A stretch of 34,186 bases of DNA from an uncultured Arenicella sp. (GTDB taxonomy: Bacteria > Pseudomonadota > Gammaproteobacteria > Arenicellales > Arenicellaceae), in contig CALAKU010000094.1 in NCBI GenBank assembly GCA_937922925.1, positions 1 to 34,186 on the forward strand, given 5' to 3'. Of this stretch, positions 10,801-34,186 are shown in pieces. Both the position numbers and the translations under genes were made by a program. The stretch's first letter is position 1; the number at the start of each line of letters is the position of its first letter. The notes beneath the pieces are model-generated. The model saw nothing but the letters and a program-made list of their open reading frames with translations. It did not search any database and was not told where the DNA came from.

Positions 10801-10852
10801 GTCTCAACCTCGAAAAAATAATAAGGTGTGATAAAACTGATTTATCTTGGTG

Positions 10853-11602
10853 TTACGAAAACAAGAGACCGCCGTTGATGTCGATGTTGTTGCCAGTGAT
10901 AAAAGAGGCTTCTTCTGACAAAAGGTAGCTCACCGCGTTTGCGACTTCTTCGGGCCGACCTTCGCGCCGTAGTGGCGTGCCATTGGCAACGTTGGTGCGA
11001 ACAGCGTCTTGGGTAAATGTGTCATGAAAAGTGGTGCTTATCATTCCTGGGCACAATGAATTAACTCGAATCCCTTTAGGGCCAAGTTCTTTTGCCATGG
11101 CTCGGGTAAATGTCATCACGGCCCCTTTGGACGTTGCATAGGCTGAGGCACCAGGGCCCCCACCATCGCGACCGGCCTGAGATGCCAAATTCACGATAGA
11201 CGCGCCTTGGTCCATGTGAGCCGAGGCTAGCTTAGTAGTTAAAAACGTTGAATTCAGATTTAAACTCATGATTTTATTGAAAAAATCTTCTTCCATAACG
11301 TCAATGGTTTGTCGCTCGACTAGGCCTCCAGCGACATTGACCAATCCGTGTATCTGCCCGCCAAGCTCCAAGGCCTGATCTACCAATGCTTGGACATCCG
11401 CCTGAGATGTCATATCCCCTTGGACAATAATCGACTCGCATCCCATTTCTGATAGCTCTTGTTGTAGGCTTTGAGCGAGGTCTTTGCTGCCGAAATAATT
11501 AATCGCAAGCTTCGCTCCTTGAGAGCCCAATTTTTTCGACACTTCTCGACCTATGTCGCGTGCGCCGCCGGTAACAATAATAGTCTTATTTTTTAAATTC
11601 AT
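10853..11602 (-). CDS. Short-chain dehydrogenase/reductase, probable DEH reductase
   Basis: A classical SDR of 249 residues. The cofactor loop is TGGARDIG near residue 11, the NAG motif appears as NVAGG (about 88), and the catalytic serine (NLASQAG) and YATSK lie at about residues 140-160. In alginate-degrading bacteria the SDR in this position reduces 4-deoxy-L-erythro-5-hexoseulose uronate (DEH) to 2-keto-3-deoxygluconate with NAD(P)H. The assignment rests on the fold plus the place between the transporter and kdgK genes. The cofactor preference is not clear from the sequence. No strong ribosome binding site is visible. A different sugar acid oxidoreductase activity remains possible. Confidence 0.88.
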   Translation of the reverse strand: MNLKNKTIIVTGGARDIGREVSKKLGSQGAKLAINYFGSKDLAQSLQQELSEMGCESIIVQGDMTSQADVQALVDQALELGGQIHGLVNVAGGLVERQTIDVMEEDFFNKIMSLNLNSTFLTTKLASAHMDQGASIVNLASQAGRDGGGPGASAYATSKGAVMTFTRAMAKELGPKGIRVNSLCPGMISTTFHDTFTQDAVRTNVANGTPLRREGRPEEVANAVSYLLSEEASFITGNNIDINGGLLFS

Positions 11603-11625
11603 TTTCGTAACAACGTTTGTTTTAT

Positions 11626-11654
11626 GTTTTTTGCTAATGTGTTTTTGCTAATGT
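11626..11654. repeat. Two tandem copies of a 14-15 base unit
   Basis: The units gttttttgctaatgt (11626-11640) and gtttttgctaatgt (11641-11654) sit in the 56-base gap between the transporter stop and the reductase start of the alginate operon. They could be slippage products or an RNA processing or regulatory site; nothing in the sequence decides between these. Confidence 0.75.
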
Positions 11655-11658
11655 TTTT

Positions 11659-12960: not shown

Positions 12961-13315
12961 TGTTGGCTTCCTCTAAGAAGTCTTCTCTGTGCGGGCTAAA
13001 AATATCGATCAAGACCCCTGCTTTTTTGCATACGGCCCCGTGCATTTGATGTGGCGCCACGTAAAAAGAGTCACCGGCTTTCAGCAGTTTTGTCTCGCCG
13101 TCGACGACGGCTTCGAACTCGCCGCTCTCAACATAACTAACCTGAGTGTGGCGGTGGCTGTGTTGATAGCCAATCGCGCCCTCATCAAACCAAACCTTAA
13201 CGGCCATCAGTTCAGGCCCATAGCCGAGTATCTTGCGGCTTATGCCCTCTGAAACCTGTTCCGTCTCCACCTGATCAGAGCATACAAATGAAGGGCTGCA
13301 TTCATTCTTCTTCAT
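12950..13315 (-). CDS. kdgF: Cupin protein KdgF, unsaturated uronate ketonisation
   Basis: A small single-domain cupin of 121 residues. The metal-binding motif HSHRHTQ (about residues 54-60) and the second cupin motif with APHQMHG (about 88-94) provide the expected histidine and glutamine ligands. KdgF proteins speed conversion of the 4,5-unsaturated monouronate made by lyases into its linear keto form, DEH. The gene starts two bases after the PL17 stop and overlaps the transporter gene, so it is firmly within the alginate operon. It has no signal peptide and should act in the cytoplasm. Confidence 0.9.
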   Translation of the reverse strand: MKKNECSPSFVCSDQVETEQVSEGISRKILGYGPELMAVKVWFDEGAIGYQHSHRHTQVSYVESGEFEAVVDGETKLLKAGDSFYVAPHQMHGAVCKKAGVLIDIFSPHREDFLEEANNEN

Positions 13316-13317
13316 CT

Positions 13318-15534: not shown

Positions 15535-15536
15535 GT

Positions 15537-17813: not shown

Positions 17814-17863
17814 CAGACAAACCTAGGTTATGTGTTGCTAGTAATGGTTAGAGTACGCGTCAC

Positions 17864-17889
17864 TGTAAAACCGTTTTTGACCTTTTACA
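17864..17889. promoter_or_regulatory. Inverted repeat before the PL6 operon, candidate operator
   Basis: TGTAAAA (17864-17870) and TTTTACA (17883-17889) are a perfect 7-base inverted repeat with a 12-base spacer, about 50 bases upstream of the PL6 start codon. On the minus strand the region also offers a weak TTGTAA / TACAGT pair with a 17-base spacer, so operator and promoter may overlap. The full GntR operator motif found near the receptor gene is not present here. Confidence 0.35.
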
Positions 17890-17916
17890 AAAGCTAAACG
17901 ACTTGTGAGTAATCTG

Positions 17917-17928
17917 GATCAGCTGATC
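17917..17928. promoter_or_regulatory. 12-base palindrome GATCAGCTGATC
   Basis: A perfect palindrome about 105 bases upstream of the PL6 start, in the gap between the receptor terminator and the lyase operon. It could be a regulator site, but a palindrome of this size can also occur by chance. Confidence 0.25.
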
Positions 17929-17990
17929 ACTGCGCAGCATTCTCTGAGTAAACTTCCCTGAGCGCAGCCAAAAAAACTGAGGCCAAACAA

Positions 17991-18023
17991 ATAACGGGCA
18001 CGGTAAATACTCGTACCCGTTAT
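17991..18023 (-). terminator. Terminator after the TonB-dependent receptor gene
   Basis: The arms ATAACGGG (17991-17998) and CCCGTTAT (18016-18023) pair perfectly, with an additional inner ACG/CGT pairing. On the minus strand the hairpin is followed by TTGTTTGG, and on the plus strand by TTTATC, so it may work both ways. It begins 20 bases after the receptor stop and separates the receptor from the lyase operon. Confidence 0.7.
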
Positions 18024-18043
18024 TTTATCTCATCGTTACGAGA

Positions 18044-21000
18044 CTAGAAGCGATAGCTGCCGCCGAAGATAATGCGACGATCAGGGAAGCCTACGAAACA
18101 TAGAGGCCCACTGCCGCTGACGCAGTTTTGATCAATCCGCTCTTCCGTCAAATTAACAACCTCAACTCCAACGTTGAAATGGTCGTTAATGTCGTACGAA
18201 ATACTGGCATTCAACTGGCCTCGGTCGCCGGTAACCACTGGGAAGCTAAAGGTACTGCTACCACTGGTGTTCGCACCGCCACCAAAGTCTTGTGTGCGGA
18301 ACGCTTCACGCCAAGTGTAGCGAGCTCGCGCTGAGACACCGTACTTCTCGTAAAAGACAGTCACGTTATAGGCTGTTTCAGAAAAATCAAGCAGCCCGCG
18401 CTCAGCACTGACTTCGCCTAGCACTGAAAGACCTCGACCAGAGGTGCTATCGATCACCGATCCACCGCTGAAATCTTGAAAAGTTGCGTTGGCAACAAGG
18501 CCGAAACCAGACGCCCAGCCCAATGAATCTTCATAGCTTGAAAGATCGTACTGGAATGCTAGCTCAACACCTGTCTGAGTAGTAGTTTCAGGGTCGTTCC
18601 CTGGAATGGTAAAGTCAACACAGAGCCCTAACTGATTCGGGTTGCCAAGCACGTTTGGCACAACATCTGGATTAAAAATACCACCACCTGGGCAAGAAGG
18701 ATCCGTCTCGCGCGAGAAACCGAAGGTGTTATTAGGGTCGGCTATCAAGGCAGCGCCTTCAAAATCAACACCAAAGATATTGGTTCGCTCTTTGCGGAAA
18801 TAACCAATACTCGCTACTGCCGCTGGCGCAAAATACCATTCAAGAGAAAGGTCTAAAGAATCTACCTCTTCAGGCTCTAATCCGGGATTACCTAAGGCAA
18901 CAACCGCGTTCTCACTCGGGTCGAACGTAAAGCCAGTCGCTAGATCATCAAAGTCGGGGCGACGAATGTCAGACCCAAAACCAAAGCGAACGATAACGCT
19001 GTCCGATGGCTGCGCAACAATGTTTAAGCGTGGCAACAAGAAGTCATAGCTACCTGTTGTCGTTTCCAAAGAACGGTTACCAGCGGCATCTTCGGGGCCA
19101 AAACCCGTTGAGGTGATCTCAGTATCAAGATATCTAACACCAACATTACCGCGAAAAATACCGTATTCGAAATTAGCCTGAGCATAGAGTGAATTAGTTT
19201 CCTCACTGATATCGAAGAAAGCGTTCTCATCCGAAGACAAGTTGAGCGTCAAATCACCATCAGCTTGAGGCTCCAATGCTCGTTGTTGCGCGAGAGCTGA
19301 TTCGAGGATCGAAATAACCCCATTTGGGTCAGAAAACGATCGATCGGGATCAATCAACAGAAAGTTGCTGATGAACAAACCACGACCATCTGCCGCGTTG
19401 AAGTTACTTGGTCCGCGCACTAACAATTCTTGGAAAAACGTGCCATTCGGGCTGTCTTCTAAACGGCTGAAACCACCGATGCGATCATCAATGTCTTCAA
19501 ATCGACTTGAAGACTCATTAAAACGGTAACCAAAATCAACAGAAGTGATGCCCGTGTCGCTGAAGGCTCGTGAAAAGTCTAAGCGAAACGCATCTTCCGA
19601 GTTGTTGGTGGTGTTTTGACCTACGTCTACCTGATCAAGAACCACATTTGCGGGGTTTGTCAGGTCCGCAACCGAAGGTGCAAACGGCGAGTCAAAGTTG
19701 ATGCCAAACGACAGAGAACCGCCGCTTAGGTCATAGATAAACGGCACGCAGTTATCATTACTGGTGCTGGGGTCGCCTGAGGGCGCGCCATCTAGAGGAC
19801 AGTTTGGATTAATAAAATTTAGAGTCGTATTGAGGGTAGGATTTGTTGTATCGGAGCTAGTCGATGCAATTTCGAAGCTCGCTGTCCATTTATCGTCTTT
19901 CCATTCGCCACCTAGAGAGAAAATCTCGCTTTCGGTAACTCGTGACCCAGTCTCACTAGTAAAACGCAAGTTAGGATCATCATCGTCGTTAGCTAAATTT
20001 GGCTCTAATGTGCCAGCTAAAGCTGCCGGAAATGTTCCTAGGTTTTGGCCACCGAGGTTGCCAAAATTAACCGTTTCAAACGCAGTTGGAACACTGATAT
20101 TTCTTAATGAGCTTACCCCAGAGGCTTGCAGTCTGTACTGATCTCGGCTGCGCTCTTGTTCGTTGATAATCGCATCAAAATGGAATGTGAGATTGTCATT
20201 CGGGGCCCACTCGAAAGTACCCGCCAAATTAGTGGTTTCAAAGTCGTCATTTTCTTGTTCTTGCAACAAGAATTGAATACCCAAAAACTCTGAAGGATTC
20301 GCTCCGGGAGGCGACGCGATATTATCGCGGTCAGCACGTGGTCTAAACGACACCGCTTCTTGCTCAGTGTAGCTACCGCTTAATACTAAGCCAAAGCGAC
20401 CCGAGTCCGTTTCCCATACATCGCCATAAGCTGCTGAAAAACGCGGTTGAATGCTTTCCGTTGATAGGCTGCTGTCTTCGCCTTGAACTCGTATGGCCCC
20501 AAGCGTTTTGGTCAACTCAAGCGGGCGAATCGTTCGTAGATTAATCGTGCCACCGACCGAGCCTTCGATTGTTTTCGCTTCAGGTGATTTTGTTACCTCC
20601 ACCGCGCTGATAATCGAGGCGTTCACGTCCTCGAAATCGATACCGCTGCGCCCTGCTCCTGAACCAACGGTTGACACACCATTGATTTCAACACGATTCG
20701 CATTGGTTCCGCGGATTTGCACGCCAGTACCAATACCAGCGGTTCTAGTAATCTGAATACCCGTAATGTTCTCAAGTACTTCCGCCAAGTTTTGGTCAGG
20801 TAGCTTACCAATATCTTCAGCGCGAATTACTTCGATTAAATTGTCGGAAGACCTTTTTTCATCCAAGGCGTTCTGCAATGAAGCACGAATCCCAGTAATC
20901 ACAAGCTCTTCTAGTTCATCGCCTTGATCAGTGTTTTGGGCAAAAGTGGGTCCAGCGGCACCAATCACACTTGCAACGGCACCAGCAATAAGTATTTTTT

Positions 21001-21055
21001 TAGTCGACAACCGCAAATTGGGCTGGCCGACTCTCCTCGTATCAAATGTCATCAT
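18044..21055 (-). CDS. TonB-dependent outer-membrane receptor
   Basis: A 1003-residue outer-membrane protein. The signal peptide ends at about residue 40 (GPTFAQ), followed by a TonB-box-like ELVITG, a plug domain (about residues 58-180, with IGKLPDQNLAEVLENITGIQI and GSVGGTINLRT) and a long beta-barrel ending in the terminal phenylalanine of GGSYRF. Its length and plug type match receptors used for oligosaccharides, and its place next to alginate lyases and a divergent GntR gene suggests import of alginate oligomers. There is no SusD gene, as expected outside Bacteroidota. AAGAG lies about eight bases before the ATG. The receptor has its own promoter region, with GntR-type operators, and its own terminator. 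Confidence 0.93.
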   Translation of the reverse strand: MMTFDTRRVGQPNLRLSTKKILIAGAVASVIGAAGPTFAQNTDQGDELEELVITGIRASLQNALDEKRSSDNLIEVIRAEDIGKLPDQNLAEVLENITGIQITRTAGIGTGVQIRGTNANRVEINGVSTVGSGAGRSGIDFEDVNASIISAVEVTKSPEAKTIEGSVGGTINLRTIRPLELTKTLGAIRVQGEDSSLSTESIQPRFSAAYGDVWETDSGRFGLVLSGSYTEQEAVSFRPRADRDNIASPPGANPSEFLGIQFLLQEQENDDFETTNLAGTFEWAPNDNLTFHFDAIINEQERSRDQYRLQASGVSSLRNISVPTAFETVNFGNLGGQNLGTFPAALAGTLEPNLANDDDDPNLRFTSETGSRVTESEIFSLGGEWKDDKWTASFEIASTSSDTTNPTLNTTLNFINPNCPLDGAPSGDPSTSNDNCVPFIYDLSGGSLSFGINFDSPFAPSVADLTNPANVVLDQVDVGQNTTNNSEDAFRLDFSRAFSDTGITSVDFGYRFNESSSRFEDIDDRIGGFSRLEDSPNGTFFQELLVRGPSNFNAADGRGLFISNFLLIDPDRSFSDPNGVISILESALAQQRALEPQADGDLTLNLSSDENAFFDISEETNSLYAQANFEYGIFRGNVGVRYLDTEITSTGFGPEDAAGNRSLETTTGSYDFLLPRLNIVAQPSDSVIVRFGFGSDIRRPDFDDLATGFTFDPSENAVVALGNPGLEPEEVDSLDLSLEWYFAPAAVASIGYFRKERTNIFGVDFEGAALIADPNNTFGFSRETDPSCPGGGIFNPDVVPNVLGNPNQLGLCVDFTIPGNDPETTTQTGVELAFQYDLSSYEDSLGWASGFGLVANATFQDFSGGSVIDSTSGRGLSVLGEVSAERGLLDFSETAYNVTVFYEKYGVSARARYTWREAFRTQDFGGGANTSGSSTFSFPVVTGDRGQLNASISYDINDHFNVGVEVVNLTEERIDQNCVSGSGPLCFVGFPDRRIIFGGSYRF

Positions 21056-21122
21056 TTTATTCTCTTTGTAATAATCTGGTCTTACATGCCACGCATATAG
21101 GCATTTATTTATACTTACAAAA

Positions 21123-21133
21123 TATTATGACAA
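21123..21133. promoter_or_regulatory. Partial GntR operator, TATTATGACAA
   Basis: Matches one half of the TNGTNNNACNA motif of FadR-type regulators, with one fixed position changed. It is the copy nearest the receptor start codon, in the same intergenic region as three full matches. Confidence 0.4.
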
Positions 21134-21166
21134 TTACAACAAGATATTTTGTTTTTTAATAGAATT

Positions 21167-21177
21167 TGGTATGACAT
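21167..21177. promoter_or_regulatory. Partial GntR operator, TGGTATGACAT
   Basis: Differs from TNGTNNNACNA only at the last base. Its centre is 23 bases from the next full site, about two helical turns, as expected for side-by-side binding. Confidence 0.5.
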
Positions 21178-21189
21178 TCTTATCCCTAA

Positions 21190-21200
21190 TTGTATGACAA
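21190..21200. promoter_or_regulatory. GntR (FadR-type) operator, TTGTATGACAA
   Basis: A full match to TNGTNNNACNA with TTGT and ACAA as inverted half-sites, lying between the divergent receptor and regulator genes. It is placed to control the receptor promoter. Confidence 0.7.
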
Positions 21201-21283
21201 TTGTGAGGCCAATGTTTTCAACAGCTTACATCAACCACCTGAGCCAACGACCTAAGTGTGATGCGAAAGCTGAGTGAGCATAA

Positions 21284-21294
21284 TTGTCATACAA
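21284..21294. promoter_or_regulatory. GntR (FadR-type) operator, TTGTCATACAA
   Basis: A full match with the same half-sites; its core is the reverse complement of the previous copy. It lies upstream of the regulator gene and suggests autoregulation. Confidence 0.7.
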
Positions 21295-21316
21295 TCTTCA
21301 TGCTTTGTTATCAATA

Positions 21317-21327
21317 TTGTATTACAA
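21317..21327. promoter_or_regulatory. GntR (FadR-type) operator, TTGTATTACAA
   Basis: The third full match, 33 bases (about three helical turns) from the previous one. It lies just before the earliest plausible start of the regulator, consistent with autorepression. Confidence 0.65.
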
Positions 21328-21377
21328 TCCGAAAAGTTGATGTTATGATCGAAATAAGAAAAAAACGAGAACTTGGC

Positions 21378-22130
21378 ATGTCAGGAAAAAAGCGACTGTA
21401 TTTATCAGTATTTAACGAGATATCTAAAAGGATTAATTCCGGGGAATTTCCGGTGGGCAGCCGATTACCAACTGAGCGCGAGTTGTCAGAGCGCTTTGAA
21501 GTCAGCAGACCAACGATACGAGAAGCCATCATTGCCCTTGAAGCCAAAGAGCAGGTATCCGTAAAAGCGAACTCAGGGGTCTATGTATTAGGCAGTAATT
21601 TAGCTAATGACGACTTTAGCCGTGAGATTAGTGCGTTTGAATTATTAGAAGCAAGAGTGATTTTAGAGGGCGAAGCAGCGGCTCTAGCAGCCCGAATGAT
21701 AACGCCCGAAGAATTAAGAGAATTGGCCTTAGCGCTGAGCCAAATGGAACAAGAAGGTGTAGAAGATATATCCTCTTCTGGCGCAGACAGACAATTTCAT
21801 ACCATCATCGCTAAGGCCACACATAATCGAGTAATTGTTAAACAAATCAAATATTTATGGGACATTCAAGAGAATTTTGATCACATCCATGACGCTCATC
21901 AATCCGTGTGTGTTACCGATTTAAGCACTCGGATTGCCGACCATGCCGCCATCTATGATGCCATTGCGGCTGGTGAGGGCGACAAAGCACGAAAGGCAAT
22001 GAGAAAGCACTTTTCTGACCTACTCGAAGCCATGCACAATGCCTCTGAAAAGGAAGCTGTCGAAGAAACCAAACGAAAAGTTTCAAAACTACGTGAGCGT
22101 TTTACGATCGGCGAAGTCGTTAACTTATAA
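21378..22130 (+). CDS. GntR-family transcriptional regulator, FadR/FCD subfamily
   Basis: A DNA-binding repressor-type regulator, 250 residues from the start chosen here. A winged helix-turn-helix occupies about residues 5-75 (LPTERELSERFEVSRPTIRE and then NSGVYVLG). An FCD ligand-binding domain follows from about 90 to 230, with FELLEARVILEGEAAA, DRQFHTIIAKATHN and a histidine in ADHAAIYDAI, in line with the metal-binding pocket of this domain. The start MSGKKRLYLSV fits family N-termini; ATG at 21345 would add 11 residues. The frame is open back to 21258, but that would place two operators inside the gene. It is divergent from the receptor gene and probably senses an alginate breakdown product such as DEH or KDG. 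Confidence 0.9.
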   Translation: MSGKKRLYLSVFNEISKRINSGEFPVGSRLPTERELSERFEVSRPTIREAIIALEAKEQVSVKANSGVYVLGSNLANDDFSREISAFELLEARVILEGEAAALAARMITPEELRELALALSQMEQEGVEDISSSGADRQFHTIIAKATHNRVIVKQIKYLWDIQENFDHIHDAHQSVCVTDLSTRIADHAAIYDAIAAGEGDKARKAMRKHFSDLLEAMHNASEKEAVEETKRKVSKLRERFTIGEVVNL

Positions 22131-22347: not shown

Positions 22348-23088
22348 ATGCAACATGTGTTTTTCACCTCGCGAAGCCATAGAGGAAAGGTCAAACGAAA
22401 CAATCAAGACTGTTTGGCGTATCTTGATGATCTGGCGTTCGCCGCCATTGCCGATGGGGTTGGTGGTAGCGCATACGGTGAGGTAGCGAGCCAGCTTAGC
22501 ATTGATGCCTGCCTTGACTATCTCGTGTCTGAGAAAGCATTGCCCTCTTCTAATACGCACAAAGAATTGTCTAACGCAATAAAAGTCGCGAATGAAGAAA
22601 TCATCACTATTCAACGGAATGAGCCCAAATACGCAAAGATGAGCTCAACGCTGACTTGCTTTTGCGTGTGTGACTCAGAGCTTCATTATGCTTGGGTTGG
22701 TGATTCGAGGGTTTACTTGCTGCGCCCTTCAAAAGAATCGATTACGATGCTCAGCAGTGACCATACGCTCGATCGATCAAAGATTGATCCGCAAATGGCA
22801 CCGCAACTTTATAAACGGGCAGCAAGCATTTTAACCCGAACCGTCGGCAGCATTCTGTTACTGAAGCCAGATACCGGCTTGATACCTGTTGAAACCGGCG
22901 ATTTGGTTCTCGCCTGTACCGATGGGCTCACTAACATGGTACCCGATGAGCTGATACTCGAGTACACGACCAAGGCTGACATTGATACCTCAGAAGGCTT
23001 AGAAAAACTCGCGGATCGCTTGCTCGACAGAGCCTTGGATTGCGGCGGTGTTGACAACATCTCCTTTGTTTTAGCAAAAATAACTTAA
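22348..23088 (+). CDS. PP2C-type serine/threonine protein phosphatase
   Basis: A soluble 246-residue phosphatase of the PPM/PP2C family. Motifs in order are HRGKVKRNNQD (about residue 11), ADGVGG (about 35), YAWVGDSRVYLL (about 110), SSDHTLDRS, ACTDGL (about 190) and GGVDNISF near the end. The aspartates in these motifs bind the two metal ions of the active site. It removes phosphate from Ser/Thr residues, most likely countering the kinase encoded convergently five bases away. It has no membrane segment and should be cytoplasmic. Targets are unknown. Confidence 0.93.
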   Translation: MQHVFFTSRSHRGKVKRNNQDCLAYLDDLAFAAIADGVGGSAYGEVASQLSIDACLDYLVSEKALPSSNTHKELSNAIKVANEEIITIQRNEPKYAKMSSTLTCFCVCDSELHYAWVGDSRVYLLRPSKESITMLSSDHTLDRSKIDPQMAPQLYKRAASILTRTVGSILLLKPDTGLIPVETGDLVLACTDGLTNMVPDELILEYTTKADIDTSEGLEKLADRLLDRALDCGGVDNISFVLAKIT

Positions 23089-23093
23089 GGTAT

Positions 23094-24044
23094 TTATTGC
23101 TTTAAAAGCCGGATCATCTCAGCCGCGCTTTGCAAGCGTGAGTCGGGCTCTTTTTCTAAGCATTGCATCACGGTTTTTTCGACTACGCTGGGTATTTTTA
23201 TTTTTGAAATTTTAGACGGTGACACCGGGTTGGTGTTTAAGGTGCTTTCGATCACTTGGCTCGCTGTATCCCCTTTTGTGGTCAATTCACCAGTCAACGC
23301 CTCATAAAGGATAGCGCCCAAACTGTAAATGTCGGTACGGCCATCGATGTCATCGTCTTTGTTTATTTGCTCTGGCGACATATAGCACACCGTTCCTTGC
23401 AACTTTTGAAAGCCGGTCATACTTTTATCTTGCGCTGATCTGCTGGCCGTTAATTCATCAAAAACGGCGATCTCTCCAGTTTCGCTGCGCACTTTTGCAA
23501 GCCCCCAATCAAGCAGTAACACTTCACCAAACGGCCCGACCAGTATGTTTTCAGGCTTGATATCTCGATGCACTACACCATGAGTATGCGCATATTCAAG
23601 CGCATGCGCCACTTGAATCACGATGTCTAGCAGCTGAGACAAATCATAGCGCTCACGAAAATTGATGATCTCGCGAAAGGTATAACCTTGCACTAACTTC
23701 ATGGTGAAGTAGTAGTGCCCCTTTCGATCACGACCAAGCTCATAGGTCGGCATGGTATTGGGATGCTGCAACATGGCCGAGACGCGAGCTTCGCGAAGCA
23801 GGCGCTTTTGCTCAATCGGATCATCCGCAAACTCTGGCAAAAGCGACTTATAGCAAATGACCCGCCCAAGATGCTGGTCTCGGCATGATTGAATCAGCGA
23901 CTTACCGCCTTTGGCAATGGTCTTAAAGTGCGAGTAACGAAAATTGGGATTGATCTGCTTGGCTAAATCTTTATCCGTCTGCTCGGTGTAGAGCTTGGGG
24001 TAATCGTCCTGCTTAAATTTTGGGAATTCACTCATACGAGCCAC
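23094..24044 (-). CDS. Eukaryotic-like serine/threonine protein kinase
   Basis: A cytoplasmic 316-residue protein kinase made of the kinase domain alone (about residues 39-315), without a membrane segment or sensor domain. ATP-binding lysine 66 (VICYKSL), the helix C glutamate near residue 85, HRDIKPEN at 159-166 and DWG at 179-181 in place of DFG are seen. The glycine-rich loop is weak (AKGGKSLIQS). DWG is common in bacterial kinases of this type, so activity is likely kept. The start is GTG at 24044 or ATG at 24035; neither has a clear ribosome binding site. It is convergent with the PP2C gene, an opposing-enzyme pair, but not in one operon. Confidence 0.92.
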   Translation of the reverse strand: MARMSEFPKFKQDDYPKLYTEQTDKDLAKQINPNFRYSHFKTIAKGGKSLIQSCRDQHLGRVICYKSLLPEFADDPIEQKRLLREARVSAMLQHPNTMPTYELGRDRKGHYYFTMKLVQGYTFREIINFRERYDLSQLLDIVIQVAHALEYAHTHGVVHRDIKPENILVGPFGEVLLLDWGLAKVRSETGEIAVFDELTASRSAQDKSMTGFQKLQGTVCYMSPEQINKDDDIDGRTDIYSLGAILYEALTGELTTKGDTASQVIESTLNTNPVSPSKISKIKIPSVVEKTVMQCLEKEPDSRLQSAAEMIRLLKQ

Positions 24045-26571: not shown

Positions 26572-28737
26572 TTACTCGCGACTTAGCGAGTCATAAAAGG
26601 CTTTATCTCTAGAGCTGTTAGCTTCATTAATCACATAGGCTCGAATCGCCTCACTGGTTTTTGAATCCAGAACACCTCCAAAGTTTGGCATACCTTGACT
26701 GGCGAGCGCGCCGTTTTCAACCACACCCTGCCACGCCTCTGCGCTTTGCGTTATCGCTGAATAACGTAAATTTGGCACCAAGCCCGAAGAAAAGGCCTGA
26801 TCACCGTGACAACTCGCGCAGGTTTCTGCATAGGCATAAGCGCCCGCTTTGATCACATCTTGACCGACATCCAGCAGAGTTGGAATCGAGACGGCCGACT
26901 CAGTGCTAGCCGGGATCGGCGGCAGTTCATCAGCAGCCCCTAGTTTGAACACCATAACTCGCCCTAGTTTTGGCGTGCTGCCAGTCGGTAAGACTCCACC
27001 ATAGCCAAGCACATACACACCGCCCCATCCAGACGCCACGGCAATGTATTGCTCGCCATCTAGCTCATAAGTAATTGGCGCCGCGATTACGCCAGTTTGC
27101 GTATAAAACGACCAAAGCGGTTCACCAGATTGCGCATTAAACGCCGCAAAATGCGCATCGGCTGTGCCTTGGAACACCAAATTACCGCTGGTTGAGAGTA
27201 CGCCGCCATTCCAAGGGCCCGAATGTTCGTGTCGCCACACTTCTTGTTGTTTGACTGGGTCCCAAGCGATCAAACGGCCCTTGAGCGACGCCTTCGCCGC
27301 TTTAAATACCGCTTTGTCCGTTGGTAGCCCTGCATAGATCGAGTCTGTGCCGGTATTCCAAGTACCCAAGGTGTATTGGTAGCCGGGCTTATCAACATAA
27401 ACCCAAGGGGCTTCTTGAGCGGGAATGTAAACCAAATTGGTGTCGTGGCTGTACGACATGGGTTGCCAATTATGAGCGCCCAGCGGCCCCGGCAATTGGA
27501 TGCTCGGTGCCTTTCCAGAGTATCTCGCCGACTCCGTTTCAACCGGCCGACCGGTTTTCAGGTCAATGTGCGTTGCCCAGGTGACGGGAACAAAATTATT
27601 GGCCGATATTAATTCGCCTGTTTCACGATCAACCACATAAAAGAAGCCGTTTTTAGGGGCTTGCATGATCACTTTGCGAACTTGGCCTTGAATCTCAAGA
27701 TCCGCCAAGATCATATGCTGCGTTGCCGTGTAATCCCAATTGTCGGCCGGTGTGGTTTGGTAGTGCCAAACGTATTCGCCCGAATCGGGCCGAACCGCAA
27801 CAATGGATGATAAGAATAAGTTGTCGCCGCCTTCAGGGCTGCGAATGCTGTGGTTCCATGGCGAGCCATTGCCTACGCCGATATAGAGCAAATCCAGCTC
27901 AGGATCGTAGGCCATTGAATCCCAGGCGGTGCCGCCACCTCCGGCCTGCCAATACTCTCCTGTCCAGGTTTTTGCGGCCATCGCCATCGTCTCGTTTTCA
28001 AAGCCTTGCGCTGGGTCGCCAGGCACAGTGAAAAACCGCCAAAGCAGCTCGCCACGCTCAGCTGAATACGCACTCACATAGCCACGCACCCCCAATTCAG
28101 CGCCGCCATTACCAATAATCACTCGCCCATCAATGACGCGTGGCGCACCAGAAATCGTGTAAGGAAGGCTTTTGTCAATGGTGTTGATGTCCCAATTCAC
28201 CGCACCGGTTTTGGCATCCAGTGAGATAAGCCGCCCGTCCATGGTCGCGGTAAACACTGAGTCGCCCCAGATAGCAACGCCGCGATTAACCACATCACAG
28301 CACCCCTTAGCCGCTTGTTCTTTATCTATTTTGGGATCATAGCGCCAAATTTGCGCTCCGGTTCTGGCGTCAAGAGCGTAAACAACATTCCAAGTCGCGG
28401 TGGCATAGAGGATACCGTCGTGAACAATCGGCGTGGTTTCAATACCTCGACTGGTGCCTAAATCAAATGCCCACGCCAAGCCTAACTGATCAATATTCTG
28501 CGCATTGATGCGCTTGAGCGGCGAGTGTCGTTCCTCAGCATAAGTTCGCCCATGCGATCGCCATCCTGAATTGTCCGCATTAATAATCGCGTCGCGATCA
28601 ACACTCGAACTAGCTTGGCGGTTTTTAGTTTGCCCATGGCTTAATGACTCTTGTCTGTCAGATTGATCATGACATGCAGATAACACTAAAAAACTGAGGC
28701 AAAACAATAAGTTAAGGTTTCTTATTTTTATCACCAT
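26572..28737 (-). CDS. PQQ-dependent quinohaemoprotein alcohol dehydrogenase, lipoprotein
   Basis: A 721-residue periplasmic dehydrogenase. The signal ends in lipobox LSAC (Cys22), so it is lipid-anchored. An eight-bladed propeller (about residues 45-600) shows AWAFDLGTSRGIETTP, the vicinal cysteines of GCCDVVNRG that sit over PQQ, GGGGTAWDSMAYDP and NWDYTATQ with the presumed catalytic aspartate. A C-terminal cytochrome c domain has CASCH at 640-644 and the probable axial methionine in GMPNF. It would oxidise alcohols or aldehydes and pass electrons through haem to the respiratory chain. It is divergent from the mtoX operon. The true substrate is unknown. Confidence 0.92.
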   Translation of the reverse strand: MVIKIRNLNLLFCLSFLVLSACHDQSDRQESLSHGQTKNRQASSSVDRDAIINADNSGWRSHGRTYAEERHSPLKRINAQNIDQLGLAWAFDLGTSRGIETTPIVHDGILYATATWNVVYALDARTGAQIWRYDPKIDKEQAAKGCCDVVNRGVAIWGDSVFTATMDGRLISLDAKTGAVNWDINTIDKSLPYTISGAPRVIDGRVIIGNGGAELGVRGYVSAYSAERGELLWRFFTVPGDPAQGFENETMAMAAKTWTGEYWQAGGGGTAWDSMAYDPELDLLYIGVGNGSPWNHSIRSPEGGDNLFLSSIVAVRPDSGEYVWHYQTTPADNWDYTATQHMILADLEIQGQVRKVIMQAPKNGFFYVVDRETGELISANNFVPVTWATHIDLKTGRPVETESARYSGKAPSIQLPGPLGAHNWQPMSYSHDTNLVYIPAQEAPWVYVDKPGYQYTLGTWNTGTDSIYAGLPTDKAVFKAAKASLKGRLIAWDPVKQQEVWRHEHSGPWNGGVLSTSGNLVFQGTADAHFAAFNAQSGEPLWSFYTQTGVIAAPITYELDGEQYIAVASGWGGVYVLGYGGVLPTGSTPKLGRVMVFKLGAADELPPIPASTESAVSIPTLLDVGQDVIKAGAYAYAETCASCHGDQAFSSGLVPNLRYSAITQSAEAWQGVVENGALASQGMPNFGGVLDSKTSEAIRAYVINEANSSRDKAFYDSLSRE

Positions 28738-28858: not shown

Positions 28859-28904
28859 GCTCGAATAATAATAAAAATTTCACCATTTATTGGAGGATAC
28901 TCGA

Positions 28905-30263
28905 ATGATTAAATCCCTTTTCAAAGTCGCTTGCGGCTTGTTTTTAGTTAGCGCGAGTGGCATCTCTCACGCCGATGAAACCTGCATGTCGCCCTATATG
29001 GCCAAGATCGTTGGCCAAGAGGATTTTGTCTACGTATGGACCTTAGGCGAAGAAGGCTTAGGAGACGAGCAAGACAAGTTAGTTACCATTAGCGTTAACC
29101 CAGACGCGCCAGACTATGGCAAAGTCGTCGATTCACTCTCGGTTGGTGGCCGCAATGAAGCGCACCATTCCGGTTTTTCAGATGATCGTCGTTTTTTATG
29201 GGCAGGTGGTTTAGACAGCAATAAGATTTTTATCTTTGATGTACATACCGACCCAGCTAAGCCCACGCTGCACAAAACCATTGATGATTTTGTCTCAAAA
29301 AGCGGCGGTGTGGTTGGCCCACATACCTTTTACGCACTCGCTGGCCGCATGATGATTACCGGCCTTTCAAACAATAAAGACAATGGTGGCCGCACTGCCA
29401 TGGTCGAGTACTCAAACAAAGGCGAGTACGTGGCCACGCACTGGCATCCCACCGATGAAGATTTACGCGGGGCAGAAAAGTCGGGGCAATTTGCAGACGG
29501 CTACGGTTACGATGTGCGCGTTATGCCGCGCCGAAACGCCATGTTTACTTCGTCGTTCACCGGTTGGTCAAACTACATGATGGATTTTGGCACCATGTTA
29601 GCTGACCCCGAAGCCATGAAGCGCTTTGGTAACACCGCAGTGGTTTGGGATTTACATACTCGCCAACCCAAAAAAGTGTTTGATATGCCTGGCGCGCCGC
29701 TAGAAATACGCTGCGCTTGGAAGCCAAACAACAACTATTGCTTTACTACCACCGCGCTAACCTCGCAAATCTGGTTGATGTACGAAGACGAGCAAGGCGA
29801 ATGGCAAGCCAAAGCGGTAGCCGATATTGGCGATCCGTCTAAAGTCCCGTTGCCCGTCGACATATCGATTACCTCTGATGACAACGGCCTATGGGTTCAA
29901 ACTTTTATGGACGGTAAAGCGCGTTACTTTGATATTTCCGACCCATTTGCGCCCAAACAAGTGTACGAGAAAGTCATTGGTTCACAGCTAAATATGATCT
30001 CGCAAAGCTGGGACGGCAAGCGCGCTTACTTTACCTCATCACTGCTCGATAATTGGGACAAAAAAGGCGAGCTTGATGAGCAGTTTTTCAAATCCTACAC
30101 CTGGGACGGCGATAAATTGAACCTTGAATTTGAAGTCGACTTCAAAAAAGAGAAGCTCGGCAGCGCACATCAAATGCGTTTTGGTGCCTATGGTTTGTAT
30201 GGCATGGATCGGCCATGGGAAAATGAGCAAAGTGATGAGGGCGCCGACGAAGCCGCTGAATAA
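28905..30263 (+). CDS. mtoX: Methanethiol oxidase, selenium-binding protein family
   Basis: An exported protein of 452 residues from the selenium-binding protein (SBP56/SELENBP1) family. The bacterial member next to SCO and MauG genes is methanethiol oxidase, a periplasmic copper enzyme that turns methanethiol into H2S, formaldehyde and H2O2. A signal peptide is cleaved after SGISHA (about residue 24). Family motifs seen are NEAHHSGF (about residue 80), GPHTFYAL, THWHPTDED, GYGYDV and SAHQMRFG near the end, with many histidines as possible metal ligands. ATG at 28905 is preceded by GGAGG at 28892-28896; the upstream TTG at 28890 overlaps that site and is rejected. Its stop overlaps the SCO start (TAATG). 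Confidence 0.9.
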   Translation: MIKSLFKVACGLFLVSASGISHADETCMSPYMAKIVGQEDFVYVWTLGEEGLGDEQDKLVTISVNPDAPDYGKVVDSLSVGGRNEAHHSGFSDDRRFLWAGGLDSNKIFIFDVHTDPAKPTLHKTIDDFVSKSGGVVGPHTFYALAGRMMITGLSNNKDNGGRTAMVEYSNKGEYVATHWHPTDEDLRGAEKSGQFADGYGYDVRVMPRRNAMFTSSFTGWSNYMMDFGTMLADPEAMKRFGNTAVVWDLHTRQPKKVFDMPGAPLEIRCAWKPNNNYCFTTTALTSQIWLMYEDEQGEWQAKAVADIGDPSKVPLPVDISITSDDNGLWVQTFMDGKARYFDISDPFAPKQVYEKVIGSQLNMISQSWDGKRAYFTSSLLDNWDKKGELDEQFFKSYTWDGDKLNLEFEVDFKKEKLGSAHQMRFGAYGLYGMDRPWENEQSDEGADEAAE

Positions 30264-31003
30264 TGCGCCGTTTTTTCTCTAGATACCTTTTTTGGGGAGC
30301 CGCGTTTTTCGCGGCTTCTCACGTTTCGATAGCTCAAACCTCGGATTCACAGACCGCTGATCGACAAGGCGTGTTCTTAGCGCCGGGCTGGGGCAAACTC
30401 TCTTTTGAAGCACCTGAGGCAGGCACGTATACCCTACCCGCCTTAGACGCCGCAGCCGATGGTGAAGTGCTCAATCATGAAGGTAAATCGTTACAACTTG
30501 ATGATCTAACGGGCGAAAAACTCACCTTACTGAGTTTTATTTATCGCACCTGCGATGATGTGAATGGCTGCCCGCTTTCAACAATGGTGTTGTATTCCGT
30601 GGCCAATACGCTAGCTAAAGAACCCGAATTAAACGATAAGTTACGCATACTGACTTTAAGTTTTGATCCTGAAGGCGATACGCCTGAAGCGATGAGCGAA
30701 TACAAAGAGGACATCTTAGGCGACACAGACCTCGACTGGCGTTTTTTAACCACACGCTCAAATACTGAGCTATTACCGATTCTTGATGCGTATCAACAAA
30801 CGGTCGTGCAAGATCGTAAAAGCGAAGACGGTAAAGGCAAGTTCTCGCACATCTTGCGTGTGTATCTCATTGATAAAGAACGGCAAATTCGCAATATCTA
30901 CAGCCTTTCATTTTTGCATCCCGATATTCTGGTGAACGACGTCAAAACCTTGCTGATGGAAGACGCGAACATCAAGAGCCTGCAAGCTAATTCTGAACAA
31001 TGA
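30263..31003 (+). CDS. SCO1/SenC-family thioredoxin-like protein with widened cysteine motif
   Basis: A 246-residue exported thioredoxin-fold protein (signal peptide to about residue 24). SCO proteins carry copper to target enzymes using a CxxxC pair and a distant histidine. Here the cysteines are C97 and C103 in TCDDVNGCP, five residues apart, and the histidine is probably H196 (FSHILR). It is translated in a chain: its ATG overlaps the mtoX stop by one base and its stop overlaps the next start by four (ATGA). It is therefore likely to supply copper or redox activity for MtoX maturation. The wider loop may change metal handling. Confidence 0.86.
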   Translation: MRRFFSRYLFWGAAFFAASHVSIAQTSDSQTADRQGVFLAPGWGKLSFEAPEAGTYTLPALDAAADGEVLNHEGKSLQLDDLTGEKLTLLSFIYRTCDDVNGCPLSTMVLYSVANTLAKEPELNDKLRILTLSFDPEGDTPEAMSEYKEDILGDTDLDWRFLTTRSNTELLPILDAYQQTVVQDRKSEDGKGKFSHILRVYLIDKERQIRNIYSLSFLHPDILVNDVKTLLMEDANIKSLQANSEQ

Positions 31004-32280
31004 GGTTTCAATTTGCCGGCCTCGCTCTGGCATTATTGCTTTGCCAATACGCCGCTGCTGACTCGAACACTGAAGCTTCCTCTGAGGCCGCCCTACCTTC
31101 CATTCGCTTAGCGCCTGGCGACGATAAAAGCGGTTACGACTCAACCGCTTATCAAACCAATTCACTTAGTCTTGAACACCGTAAAGGAACAGCTCTTAAC
31201 CTTGCTGCGTTTGCGATTGAGCCTCAGCTTGGCCTTCCCGACCCAAAAGAGTCCCTAGAACTAGAGCCTAATGCAGCTGAAATCGCATTGGGGCGGCGTT
31301 TGTTTTTTGATCGACGTTTATCGCGCAACCAAACCATGTCGTGCGCCATGTGCCATATTCCCGAACAGGGCTTCACCAGTAACGAACTAAAACGCCCCGT
31401 CGGCTTTGAAGGTCGCAGCGTGAAGCGCAATGCGCCAAGCCTATTAAATGTGCGCCTGTATGAGCGATTTTTTGTTGACGCGCGCGAGACCAGTTTGGCT
31501 CAGCAAGCTTGGTCGCCGCTTTTAGCCAGTAACGAAATGAACAATCCGTCGATTGGCCATGTCCTTGAACAAATTAATCGCGACCCGGTTTACCAGCAAC
31601 AGTTTAAGCAGGCTTACGGTAAACCAGCCGATATGCTCAATGTTGGCTACGCCCTAGCCCAATACCAACAAAGCTTGTTGGCGGGAGACGCGGCCTTTGA
31701 TCGTTGGAAGTACGCAAGTGACAAAACCGCGCTCAGCAAGTCGCAACAGGCGGGCTTTGAGCTATTTACCGGCAAGGCTGCCTGTGCAAGCTGCCATTTG
31801 ATTGGTGATCAGTACGCGCTGTTTACCGATCAACAATTACACAATACTGGCGCAGGCTACCAAGCTTCTATGCTCGGCGAGCAAAAAGAAATCACCGTTA
31901 TTTTAGCGCCCGGCATAGAAACCACTATTCCCGCCGAAGTCGCTCAGCGCGTTGGTGAGCCCAAGCCCAATGATCTAGGCCGTTATGAAGTGAGCCTAAA
32001 CCCCAAAGATCGTTGGAAGTTTCGTACACCAACCCTTAGAAACGTTGCTTTAACTGCGCCCTACATGCATAACGGCGAGTTCTTAACGCTCAAAGACGTT
32101 GTCAATTTCTATAATCAAGGCGGCCAAGCGCATTCTGCACTAAGCCCATTGATTCGCCCCCTGAATTTAAGCGCAACAGAAGTTGATAACTTGATCGCCT
32201 TTATGCAATCACTCACCAGCAGTAAGCTAAAATTACTGGTCGCCGATGCCTTTGCGGCCGACGTTCAAGACCCCGAATAA
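31000..32280 (+). CDS. Di-haem cytochrome c peroxidase / MauG-like protein
   Basis: A 426-residue periplasmic protein with a signal peptide (to about residue 20) and two haem c sites, CAMCH at 115-119 and CASCH at 262-266. RRLFFDRRLS before the first and FRTPTLRNVALTAPYMHNG after the second are typical of bacterial CCP/MauG proteins. Such proteins either destroy H2O2 or, like MauG, oxidise residues of a partner enzyme. As the third gene of mtoX-sco-mauG, it could mature MtoX or remove the H2O2 that MtoX produces. The sequence alone does not tell which. Confidence 0.9.
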   Translation: MRFQFAGLALALLLCQYAAADSNTEASSEAALPSIRLAPGDDKSGYDSTAYQTNSLSLEHRKGTALNLAAFAIEPQLGLPDPKESLELEPNAAEIALGRRLFFDRRLSRNQTMSCAMCHIPEQGFTSNELKRPVGFEGRSVKRNAPSLLNVRLYERFFVDARETSLAQQAWSPLLASNEMNNPSIGHVLEQINRDPVYQQQFKQAYGKPADMLNVGYALAQYQQSLLAGDAAFDRWKYASDKTALSKSQQAGFELFTGKAACASCHLIGDQYALFTDQQLHNTGAGYQASMLGEQKEITVILAPGIETTIPAEVAQRVGEPKPNDLGRYEVSLNPKDRWKFRTPTLRNVALTAPYMHNGEFLTLKDVVNFYNQGGQAHSALSPLIRPLNLSATEVDNLIAFMQSLTSSKLKLLVADAFAADVQDPE

Positions 32281-32286
32281 ACTCAT

Positions 32287-32321
32287 GGCGTTAAACCTTA
32301 TTTTGTTTTACGCCGCCTTTT
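32287..32321 (+). terminator. Weak hairpin after the mtoX operon, possible terminator
   Basis: GGCGT (32287-32291) pairs with ACGCC (32310-32314), extended by AAA/TTT across one mismatch, followed by gccttttg. The stem is short and the T-run brief, so partial read-through into the next gene is likely. Confidence 0.3.
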
Positions 32322-32352
32322 GATTAAACTGCTTTAATACCTTTTTACTGTT

Positions 32353-33306
32353 ATGACTGACCCAGTGATCAAACCAAGCGAAAAACAGCCCGATGTGTTT
32401 GCTTTTTATGACAAAGGCAGCAGCACATTTTCTTATGTGGTCAAAGACCCTGATTCATCGGCGTGCGCAATCATTGATTCGGTACTGGATTTTGATTACC
32501 CCTCTGGCTCAATTCAGTATGGCAGCGCCGACGCTATTATTGACTGCATTCGCGAGCATGAACTAAACGTTGAATACCTAATTGAAACCCATGTACATGC
32601 AGATCACCTCTCTGCTGCGCCTTATATTCAAAATGTCCTAGGCGGCAAAATTGCCATTAGTAAGCACATAAAAATGGTGCAAGAAGAGTTCGGCAAGGTC
32701 TTTAACGAAGGCACCGAGTTTCAGCGCGATGGCAGTCAGTTTGATCTTTTGTTTGACGAAGACCAAGCCTACAAATTGGGCAATCTTGATTGCCTAGCCT
32801 TACACACGCCCGGCCACACTCCGGCCTGCACCACGCATATTATTGGTTCAGTCGCTTTTGTCGGCGATACGCTCTTTATGCCAGATGGCGGCACCGCGAG
32901 AGCGGATTTCCCGGGCGGTGATGCACGGACTCTATTCCATTCAATTAATCGCATCCTCGCCCTACCCGACGACACGCCTCTGTTTATGTGTCACGACTAT
33001 CAACCTAATGGGCGTGAACTCAAGTATCAAACCACCGTTAAAGAACAAAAAACTAATAACATTCATGTGATGGAAGGCGTGAGCGAAGACGACTTTGTCG
33101 CCATGCGCCAACAACGCGATAAGACCTTGGGCATGCCTACGCTCATACTGCCATCGTTGCAAACCAATATGCGCGCAGGCTATTTCCCTGAGCCAGAAAA
33201 CAATGAAACGGTGTATTTAAAAGTGCCGCTTAACGGTCTCAAGCAATCACTGGTAGCCAATAATAATTCGAAAACCAACACCAATAATAAAGATGAGTCG
33301 GCCTAA
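32353..33306 (+). CDS. MBL-fold hydrolase, persulfide dioxygenase (ETHE1)-like
   Basis: A cytoplasmic metallo-beta-lactamase-fold protein of 317 residues. The metal motif THVHADH is at 79-85, with HTPGHT (about 155), VGDTLF and CHDY further on. TARADFPGGDA recalls the ETHE1 and Blh-type group, which oxidise glutathione persulfide with one iron. No rhodanese domain is fused. The gene lies 72 bases after the di-haem protein gene and 58 bases before a sulfide:quinone oxidoreductase gene, which fits a role in clearing persulfide from sulfide oxidation. A related hydrolase activity cannot be excluded. Confidence 0.85.
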   Translation: MTDPVIKPSEKQPDVFAFYDKGSSTFSYVVKDPDSSACAIIDSVLDFDYPSGSIQYGSADAIIDCIREHELNVEYLIETHVHADHLSAAPYIQNVLGGKIAISKHIKMVQEEFGKVFNEGTEFQRDGSQFDLLFDEDQAYKLGNLDCLALHTPGHTPACTTHIIGSVAFVGDTLFMPDGGTARADFPGGDARTLFHSINRILALPDDTPLFMCHDYQPNGRELKYQTTVKEQKTNNIHVMEGVSEDDFVAMRQQRDKTLGMPTLILPSLQTNMRAGYFPEPENNETVYLKVPLNGLKQSLVANNNSKTNTNNKDESA

Positions 33307-33364
33307 GGCGAACCCTTACTGGCCTAATACTCATCACTAATAATTAAAAATTCGGAGCTCAACT

Positions 33365-34186
33365 ATGAATACGCAAACCAAGCAAGTGGATGTTCTTATC
33401 ATCGGCGCCGGCTCAGCCGGTATTGCCACGGCCGCCAGTTTAAAAAAGCGCAACGCCGGCTTGAGTATCACCTTAGTTGACCCTTCTGCCGATCATTACT
33501 ATCAACCCGGTTGGACTATGGTTGGGGGCGGCATCTTTGATGCCGAATCAACGCATCGTAAAACCGCCGATTTGATCCCTTCCGGCTGCCAATGGTTGCA
33601 AGACAGCGTAAGTACCATTGATGGCAGTAGCAGTCGCGTTACACTTGCCAGCGGCGATACTCTTGGCTATTCGCACTTAGTTGTCGCGCCCGGTTTAAAG
33701 CTAAATTGGGCTGGGGTAGAAGGCCTTGAACAAGCACTAGGTAACAACGGCGTCACCTCAAATTATCGTTACGATTTAGCGCCTTATACCTGGGAGTTAG
33801 TGCAAAACTTTAAAGGCGGCAAAGCGATTTTCACGCAACCGCCGATGCCGATCAAATGCGCTGGTGCCCCGCAAAAGGCTCTATATTTATCGGCTTCAGA
33901 ATGGTTAAAACAAGGCAAGCTTGATCAAGCCGATATTCATTTTTACAACTCTGGCCCGGTGCTTTTTGGCGTCGCCGACTATGTGCCTGCTTTGATGGAG
34001 TACATCGAAAAATACAACGCCACTTTAGACTTCGGCCAAACCTTAACCAAAGTCGATGGCGAATCAAAAACCGCGTGGTTTAAAGACAGCGAAGGCAATG
34101 AAAGCAGCTCAGAGTTTGAGTTCTTACACGTCTGCCCACCGCAGACCGCGCCTGATTTTATCAAAGCCAGTGACTTATCGGATGAC
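33365..34186 (+). CDS. sqr: Sulfide:quinone oxidoreductase, type II, truncated by window end
   Basis: The first 274 residues are present and the frame is open at the window edge. The FAD-binding GAGSAG is at residues 14-19. MPIKCAGAPQKALYLS, with Cys165, matches the conserved active-site region of mitochondrial-type (SQRDL-like) SQR; VLFGVADY follows. The enzyme oxidises sulfide to persulfide and reduces the quinone pool at the inner membrane. A GGAG lies about ten bases before the ATG. It follows the persulfide dioxygenase-like gene on the same strand. The second redox cysteine and C-terminal membrane helices would lie beyond the window. Confidence 0.9.
   Translation, partial: MNTQTKQVDVLIIGAGSAGIATAASLKKRNAGLSITLVDPSADHYYQPGWTMVGGGIFDAESTHRKTADLIPSGCQWLQDSVSTIDGSSSRVTLASGDTLGYSHLVVAPGLKLNWAGVEGLEQALGNNGVTSNYRYDLAPYTWELVQNFKGGKAIFTQPPMPIKCAGAPQKALYLSASEWLKQGKLDQADIHFYNSGPVLFGVADYVPALMEYIEKYNATLDFGQTLTKVDGESKTAWFKDSEGNESSSEFEFLHVCPPQTAPDFIKASDLSDD

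Follow-up and report, generated by a model that had tools for sequence, protein, structure and literature searches.

How does a bacterium that oxidizes methanethiol dispose of the sulfur it releases? Methanethiol derived from dimethylsulfoniopropionate (DMSP) occupies a central place in marine sulfur cycling, and it is disputed whether methanethiol oxidase (MtoX) yields H2S or sulfane sulfur. The question is raised by one end of contig CALAKU010000094.1 from an uncultured Arenicella sp., which we analysed in its entire length of 34,186 bases (the window; contig G000:C94 of an 88%-complete assembly of 104 contigs, G000). At its right end, positions 28905-34186, five open reading frames (ORFs) lie on the plus strand, and after re-reading their coordinates and comparing them with related genomes we conclude that this island very probably unites a cassette for methanethiol catabolism, mtoX-sco-mauG, with a pair of genes, pdo and sqr, for the disposal of sulfide and persulfide.

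The series opens with mtoX (28905-30263, plus strand, 452 aa), which starts at an ATG at 28905, with an in-frame TTG also at 28890, and ends with a TAA at 30261-30263. The ATG of sco (30263-31003, plus strand, 246 aa), encoding a SCO1/SenC-type copper chaperone, shares one base with that stop codon, and the gene for a MauG/MbnH-like di-haem protein (31000-32280, plus strand, 426 aa) overlaps sco by four bases. A gap of 72 bases precedes pdo (32353-33306, plus strand, 317 aa), for a type II-like persulfide dioxygenase (PDO), and 58 bases separate it from sqr (33365-34186, plus strand), for a type II (SQOR-like) sulfide:quinone oxidoreductase (SQR), whose first 274 aa are encoded before the contig ends, the assembly offering no sequence past 34186. 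The overlaps and common strand bear out the first-pass annotation, which had described an overlapping mtoX-sco-mauG unit followed by pdo and sqr. A consensus scan for regulatory sites was uninformative, with no sigma-70-like sites where shuffled sequences gave an expectation of 6.6 and six terminator-like sites where 7.2 were expected. Judged by eye, the N-termini of MtoX, SCO and the MauG-like protein look signal-like, those of PDO and SQR do not, and the two sets of steps probably take place in different compartments for this reason.

A curated model and a tree both identify the window protein of the SBP56 family as MtoX, and methanethiol oxidation is its predicted activity. It scores 760.3 bits on NF052453 (MthilOxMtoX; cut-off 650), in addition to matching the SBP56 Pfam model; other SBP56 proteins of the order that cover most of NF052453 reach 158 bits or less, and the single match in the control genomes, from Sulfolobus acidocaldarius, is also below the cut-off. 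A tree of eight proteins of the over-cut-off kind and five low scorers (134-158 bits), a set that contains no biochemically proven MtoX, groups the window protein with the seven other loci of its kind and apart from the five low scorers (branch 100/100), so that the identity first proposed for this protein holds. Residues H87, H88, H140, H422 and C27 are invariant in a 12-sequence MtoX alignment. The four histidines may correspond, by motif rather than by alignment with the Hyphomicrobium sequence, to the copper ligands His89, 90, 140 and 412 of the Hyphomicrobium methanethiol oxidase (MTO; PMC5739008, cited here, like the other published reports, from excerpts).

The next two proteins would serve the maturation of MtoX. 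SCO scores 57.2 bits on Pfam SCO1-SenC (cut-off 22.8) and has a CDDVNGC motif at residue 97. The di-haem protein matches Pfam CCP_MauG and is, on current models, MauG-like but a member of neither named equivalog, because it reaches neither the cut-off of TIGR03791 (methylamine-utilisation MauG; 188.9 bits, cut-off 443.85) nor that of TIGR04039 (MbnH; 222.8 bits, cut-off 362.85). The first-pass annotation had suggested that it takes up H2O2, and a peroxidase clearing MtoX-made H2O2 would suit its membership of a superfamily that includes the bacterial cytochrome c peroxidases (CCPs); the best-scoring PDB chains after the di-haem enzyme 6e1c, which we take to be MbnH, are peroxidases. Its two CxxCH motifs (at 115 and 262) are, however, accompanied by Tyr371, which aligns with Met in cytochrome c551 peroxidase 4aal and with Tyr in 6e1c, the arrangement of a MauG-type di-haem protein: every MauG is reported to keep the axial-ligand tyrosine (Tyr294), where CCPs have Met or His (PMC7567364). 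An equivalent of Tyr371 occurs in 81 of 84 MauG homologue rows (79 distinct sequences, some contigs being present under two ids), and the other three rows stop before that position. Among the matches listed, examined with flanks of up to 10 kb, a MauG homologue accompanies 70 of 80 named mtoX loci, only six of which have sulfide genes beside mtoX. Because the MauG-type tyrosine stands in place of the Met or His of CCPs, maturation of the MtoX cofactor, as proposed in PMC5739008, appears the likelier role, and bulk removal of H2O2 an unlikely one.

The two remaining products are assigned to sulfide and persulfide oxidation. PDO is predicted to be a type II-like enzyme: against the PDB it scores 365 bits with 4ysk (the same sequence as 4ysl), 76 with ETHE1 4chl and 75 with 4ysb, of which 4YSL (PpPDO2) has been labelled type II and 4CHL and 4YSB type I (PMC11507549). 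It matches the metallo-beta-lactamase family and scores 368 bits on NF040641, the model of the bifunctional sulfurtransferase/dioxygenase Blh; we rejected Blh as its identity, the cut-off of 625 being missed and only profile positions 138-422 of 423 being covered. The SQR fragment is closest in the PDB to mitochondrial SQOR (201 bits; the next best kind reaches 60), which we take to be a type II SQR, and its KCAGAPQK aligns with the CAGAPQ cysteine motif, in agreement with a type II enzyme for this N-terminal part. A second, C-terminal active-site cysteine falls beyond the contig end; the full-length relatives L033, L035 and L039 carry YGSCPLT. No second SQR match was found in the G000 assembly at E<=1e-20.

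Together, these assignments suggest a pathway. SCO would help to load copper into exported MtoX, and the MauG-like enzyme would make its tryptophan-derived cofactor. MtoX would cleave methanethiol to formaldehyde and a sulfur product, and H2S, produced directly or by reduction of sulfane sulfur, would pass to the membrane or into the cytosol, where type II SQR would transfer its electrons to quinone and its sulfur to a thiol, for example glutathione; PDO would then oxidise the resulting persulfide to sulfite. A neighbouring SQR would in this way both recover electrons and remove an inhibitor of MtoX, sulfide being a competitive substrate and inhibitor of the Hyphomicrobium MTO (PMC5739008). 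The earlier proposal that most MtoX products are handled at one locus stands for sulfide, with SQR and PDO as adjoining candidate steps, and does not extend to formaldehyde: no formaldehyde role is known for any of the island genes, the remainder of the genome not having been searched for such genes. A gene for a pyrroloquinoline quinone (PQQ)-dependent dehydrogenase (26572-28737), divergent from mtoX, was weighed as a partner acting on formaldehyde or alcohol and dropped as not conserved, clustering having found no homologue among the relatives' loci. Two loci (L072, L102) do have PQQ dehydrogenases of 36-38% identity, at a distance of several kb from mtoX.

Is the join peculiar to this genome? 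MtoX over the cut-off is present in 21 of 109 genomes of the order and in 32 of 369 in an even sample of the class, a union of 51 (two are in both). In these and in 11 MtoX-lacking congeners we looked for type II PDO and, with an SQOR-like query, for SQR, both at E<=1e-20. SQR is matched in 24 of the 51 and is found no more than about 5 kb from mtoX in six: G000, G004, G007, G014 and, in a second family (f14), G110 and G469. Type II PDO lies equally close in four (G000, G001, G004, G007). The six linked genomes among 24 SQR carriers compare with about 0.14 expected for a neighbourhood of ±7 kb, relatedness ignored; the linkage of mtoX with sulfide genes is above chance. Counting sqr and pdo together, five of seven MtoX-carrying congeners and both f14 genomes are linked.

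The named loci add to this picture. Linkage is seen in six of the 80 among the matches listed, all within the nine closest (L043-L051), whose titles name two uncultured Arenicella, one Cellvibrionales and six Gammaproteobacteria. Four of the nine (L043, L044, L048 and L051) were taken as the same contigs as those of G001, G009, G014 and G008. The other five (L045, L046, L047, L049 and L050) are placed by MtoX in the same clade (100/98), giving 12 distinct clade loci with those of the seven genomes of the genus (the window, G001, G004, G007, G008, G009 and G014). Nine of the 12 adjoin sqr and/or pdo, on either side of the cassette: sqr in eight, pdo in five and both in four. Contig limits affect G009, cut at a contig end, L049, cut inside sqr, and G001, which ends 669 bases past pdo. 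Comparison of gene order thus shows that the linkage recurs in related genomes, the point on which the first-pass annotation had made its reading depend, and its presence in nine of 12 loci of an Arenicella-like clade, in two opposite orders, is new here.

The orders themselves are informative. The window has mtoX-sco-mauG-pdo-sqr, and in G001 the order is mtoX-sco-mauG-pdo, the SQR matches of that genome lying elsewhere, on other contigs; G004, G007 and L046 share pdo-sqr-mtoX-sco-mauG, and G014, L047, L049 and L050 share sqr-mtoX-sco-mauG. In the SQR tree, the window protein pairs with the unlinked SQR of G001 (99/95) and next with that of the mtoX-less G015 (96/94). With groups defined by gene order, and after the first SQR tree had been viewed, an approximately unbiased (AU) test rejected the grouping of all seven linked SQRs tested as one clade (p-AU 0.0017); one clade of upstream-linked SQRs (p-AU 0.10) and one of upstream-linked MtoX (p-AU 0.11) were not rejected, the deeper forks of the tree being unresolved. 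The first tree omitted L049 (an SQR fragment), L130 (a duplicate of L139) and L123 (for its lactamase-fold protein), and the AU tests also omitted two SQR pieces of G001 C132, the f14 SQRs and the distant SQRs L134-L137. In f14, locus L124 holds mtoX, a MauG homologue, a thioredoxin-fold gene, SQR and SulP; L123 holds mtoX, two MauG homologues (one of 677 aa, fusion-length), a thioredoxin-fold relative, SQR and a 230-aa metallo-beta-lactamase protein, a candidate PDO that is 27% identical to the window PDO. The f14 SQRs share 43% identity with the SQR of G007; those adjacent to mtoX fall outside the group (97/94) formed by the SQRs of the genus, a second G110 SQR and the SQRs of G451 and G228. 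Because the linked SQRs do not form one clade and the f14 mtoX genes stand beside a different SQR lineage, the trees point to independent assembly of the mtoX-SQR joins. As a separate observation, G001:C132 bears a second, stop-interrupted SQR copy (L128:7865-9076), and the other G001 copy reaches the end of contig C129.

The same sulfide genes also occur without mtoX. In two MtoX-lacking congeners, G005 (L125:6797-12627) and G015 (L126:6851-12240), pdo-sqr is followed by a SulP-family gene (called by a Pfam scan in G005, and in G015 by clustering with that gene), and a sigma-54 activator gene is divergent to pdo. The cysteines in the N-terminal domain of the activator are spaced by 11 and 7. 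We take FisR to have the same spacing, which the excerpts of PMC7315123 did not show. A FisR-like domain (E<=1e-10) is found in three of the 18 congeners, G005, G015 and G008, which are those with pdo-sqr apart from mtoX; in G008 the activator lies beside a second pdo, and the pdo-sqr pair is on a separate 4.4-kb contig. At the same threshold the domain is absent from all five linked genomes, the genomes of the linked named loci L046, L047, L049 and L050 not having been searched. A split of three versus five would arise by chance once in 56, relatedness ignored. Such free-standing modules, along with the gaps ahead of pdo and sqr in the window, lend themselves to an account in which the island comprises two independent transcription units, one for methanethiol and an adjacent one for general sulfide defence that is induced by sulfide rather than methanethiol. 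We consider this unlikely, since linkage occurs in both orders in one clade and in a second family far above chance, and the FisR-like domain is missing from the five linked genomes searched while present in the three with the pair apart from mtoX. For the joined cassette we tentatively propose, while leaning somewhat against it, a history in which the lineage repeatedly dismantled a FisR-like/pdo/sqr/sulP module and attached its pdo-sqr core, or one gene of it, upstream or downstream of mtoX-sco-mauG; sulfide removal would thereby have come under the control of DMSP-derived methanethiol, ahead of product inhibition of MtoX.

SulP relatives with at least 40% identity are present in G005, G008, G015 and G017 and in none of the five linked genomes, two of which are only 88% complete; the G000 assembly has a SulP relative only 25% identical and away from the island, whose contig ends inside sqr. 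For the fate of sulfite, G014 places its sqr-mtoX-sco-mauG block between a soeABC-like operon and a cupin-helix-turn-helix (HTH) gene (L039:2738-15489), and among eight other soe-like loci the same flanks enclose an IclR gene instead in G000, G007 and G012 (L149, L150 and L151, with one more ORF in G007). The mtoX cassette therefore appears to move as a unit. The G008 locus has an IclR gene and no cupin-HTH match, and those of G001, G003, G004 and G013 have neither, little sequence being available there in G003. The operon encodes a molybdopterin oxidoreductase, a 4Fe-4S protein and a DmsC-type anchor, and is a candidate sulfite dehydrogenase whose best solved relative is thiosulfate reductase; the distribution of SoeA-like proteins, in six of seven MtoX-carrying versus five of 11 MtoX-lacking congeners, is too weak for use. 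L047:11273-14125 was discarded as a SoeA, being a DUF349 protein. The G014 flank beside the cassette is a cupin-HTH/GcvT-oxidase pair.

What, then, does MtoX hand on to these enzymes? The H2S and H2O2 that the first-pass annotation treated as established products are disputed: three Rhodobacteraceae MTOs gave sulfane sulfur and neither H2S nor H2O2, and a Ruegeria pomeroyi mutant without sqr and fccAB produced no more H2S than other strains (PMC10936201). On this evidence MtoX might make sulfane sulfur directly, with PDO as its true partner and SQR serving only side-product H2S; the TCMSPYM motif of the window MtoX can be set beside the TCQSPYM of cluster 2 in that report, its cysteine being invariant in 12 sequences. 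Yet sqr adjoins mtoX in eight of the nine linked loci and pdo in five, a weak contrast given that L049 and G001 are cut. In G014 the single SQR match is the linked one, and no type II PDO was found; what comes nearest to a PDO there, a match with 47% identity to the f14 protein, lies on a different contig. With the Hyphomicrobium MTO, 75% or more of the added sulfur appeared as H2S after acidification (PMC5739008). The excess of sqr and the published inhibition of MTO by sulfide favour H2S as something that the cell must remove, and we regard direct sulfane sulfur as somewhat improbable.

Several points nevertheless weigh against a cassette joined for sulfide disposal. Besides the Rhodobacteraceae results, gene linkage is unable to decide the chemistry of MtoX. 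Outside the clade and f14, the other 42 MtoX-carrying genomes show no linkage, contig ends restricting the view in some, and the 71 other named loci among the matches listed show none either. Within the clade, G008 and L045 carry mtoX-sco-mauG without pdo or sqr, so that the join is not required. In the window, SQR is incomplete, being cut at 34186, and the leaders of pdo and sqr could hold a separate promoter. Co-transcription across the 72-base gap, the enzyme activities, the compartments and cofactor maturation are all things that we infer from sequence rather than from expression data.

As for the methanethiol, DMSP is its likely source, a conclusion that we draw because the DMSP-demethylase (DmdA) model was passed in all seven MtoX-carrying congeners versus three of 11 MtoX-lacking ones (10 of 18 in total; Fisher 0.004, relatedness ignored); 14 control genomes gave weaker matches in five and none over the cut-off. 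At all four loci compared (G000, G004, G007, G014), dmdA stands in a run with homologues of metY-like, FadB-like and acyl-CoA ligase genes. The metY-like gene of G000 exceeds the cut-off of an O-acetylhomoserine sulfhydrylase subfamily model, and the ligase scores 332 on the 3-(methylthio)propionyl-CoA ligase model, whose cut-off is 822. The run is possibly a variant route from DMSP to methionine, with MetY as a possible assimilation branch for methanethiol. On G000:C59 (L157:1867-9125) it comprises dmdA, the metY-like gene, an alpha/beta hydrolase gene (present in three of the four genomes) and genes for a FadB-like protein of 763 aa and the ligase. Methionine gamma-lyase was rejected as a source, with none of 18 congeners over the curated cut-off. 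G001 has a Cys/Met-metabolism-type enzyme (L029:2056-3369) with a partial gamma-lyase match of 222 bits, below cut-off, 1.6 kb from mtoX, and an aldehyde dehydrogenase gene (L029:3399-4820) lies between the two. The window contains a second DmdA-like gene (8735-9889, plus strand; 397 bits, cut-off 410), whose best solved relative is 3tfh (290 bits), presumably the Pelagibacter DmdA; near it are genes for an acetate-CoA ligase (3983-5914) and a VC_2705-type sodium/solute symporter (6498-8234).

Elsewhere in the window, positions 9886-22130 resemble a carbohydrate-utilisation region, encoding a PfkB kinase, a short-chain dehydrogenase/reductase, a major facilitator superfamily transporter, a TonB receptor and a GntR/FCD regulator together with heparinase/alginate-lyase-like and chondroitinase B-like proteins, and 22348-24044 holds convergent genes for a PP2C phosphatase and a Ser/Thr kinase.

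Adjacency of mtoX and sqr in more than one lineage, with different SQRs, offers comparative evidence that a working MtoX requires sulfide handling, and the clade, with its linked, unlinked, sqr-only and pdo-only loci, is a natural setting in which that need could be tested. No paper on methanethiol oxidase with Arenicella was found among open-licence PMC papers; three known systems invite comparison. The mtoX-SCO1-mauG operon of Hyphomicrobium sp. VS and R. pomeroyi (PMC5739008) has the same three genes in an operon-like arrangement, but the excerpted account describes no adjoining sqr or pdo, and in R. pomeroyi an IclR regulator gene lies directly upstream, where the window has the divergent PQQ-dehydrogenase gene. 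In the FisR-controlled sulfide operon of Acinetobacter baumannii (PMC7315123), SQR and PDO cooperate, and the G005 and G015 copies likewise lie beside a FisR-like activator; unlike that operon, the window pair stands behind mtoX-sco-mauG, and the G000 assembly has no FisR-like domain at E<=1e-10. The third precedent is Methylophaga thiooxydans, for which excerpts of a 2019 report (PMC6548844) describe two mto-clusters that combine mtoX and a sco1/mauG fusion with pdo, sqrB, sulP and a SCO/TlpA gene; on dimethylsulfide, both MTOs and the downstream sco1/mauG genes were up-regulated. Because these clusters were already in print, the mtoX-pdo-sqr linkage is not new, and the central claim to novelty that the island first invited falls, but the Arenicella-like lineage seems to have arrived at the arrangement separately. 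Both systems unite mtoX, SCO1 and MauG domains, PDO and sqr at one locus. As far as the excerpted description goes, they differ in that M. thiooxydans has sco1 and mauG fused and adds a tlpA-like gene and sulP, whereas the window keeps sco and mauG separate, lacks a tlpA-like gene and shows no sulP before the contig end; several of its relatives, again unlike M. thiooxydans, place the sulfide genes on the opposite flank of mtoX. The f14 loci resemble the Methylophaga clusters.

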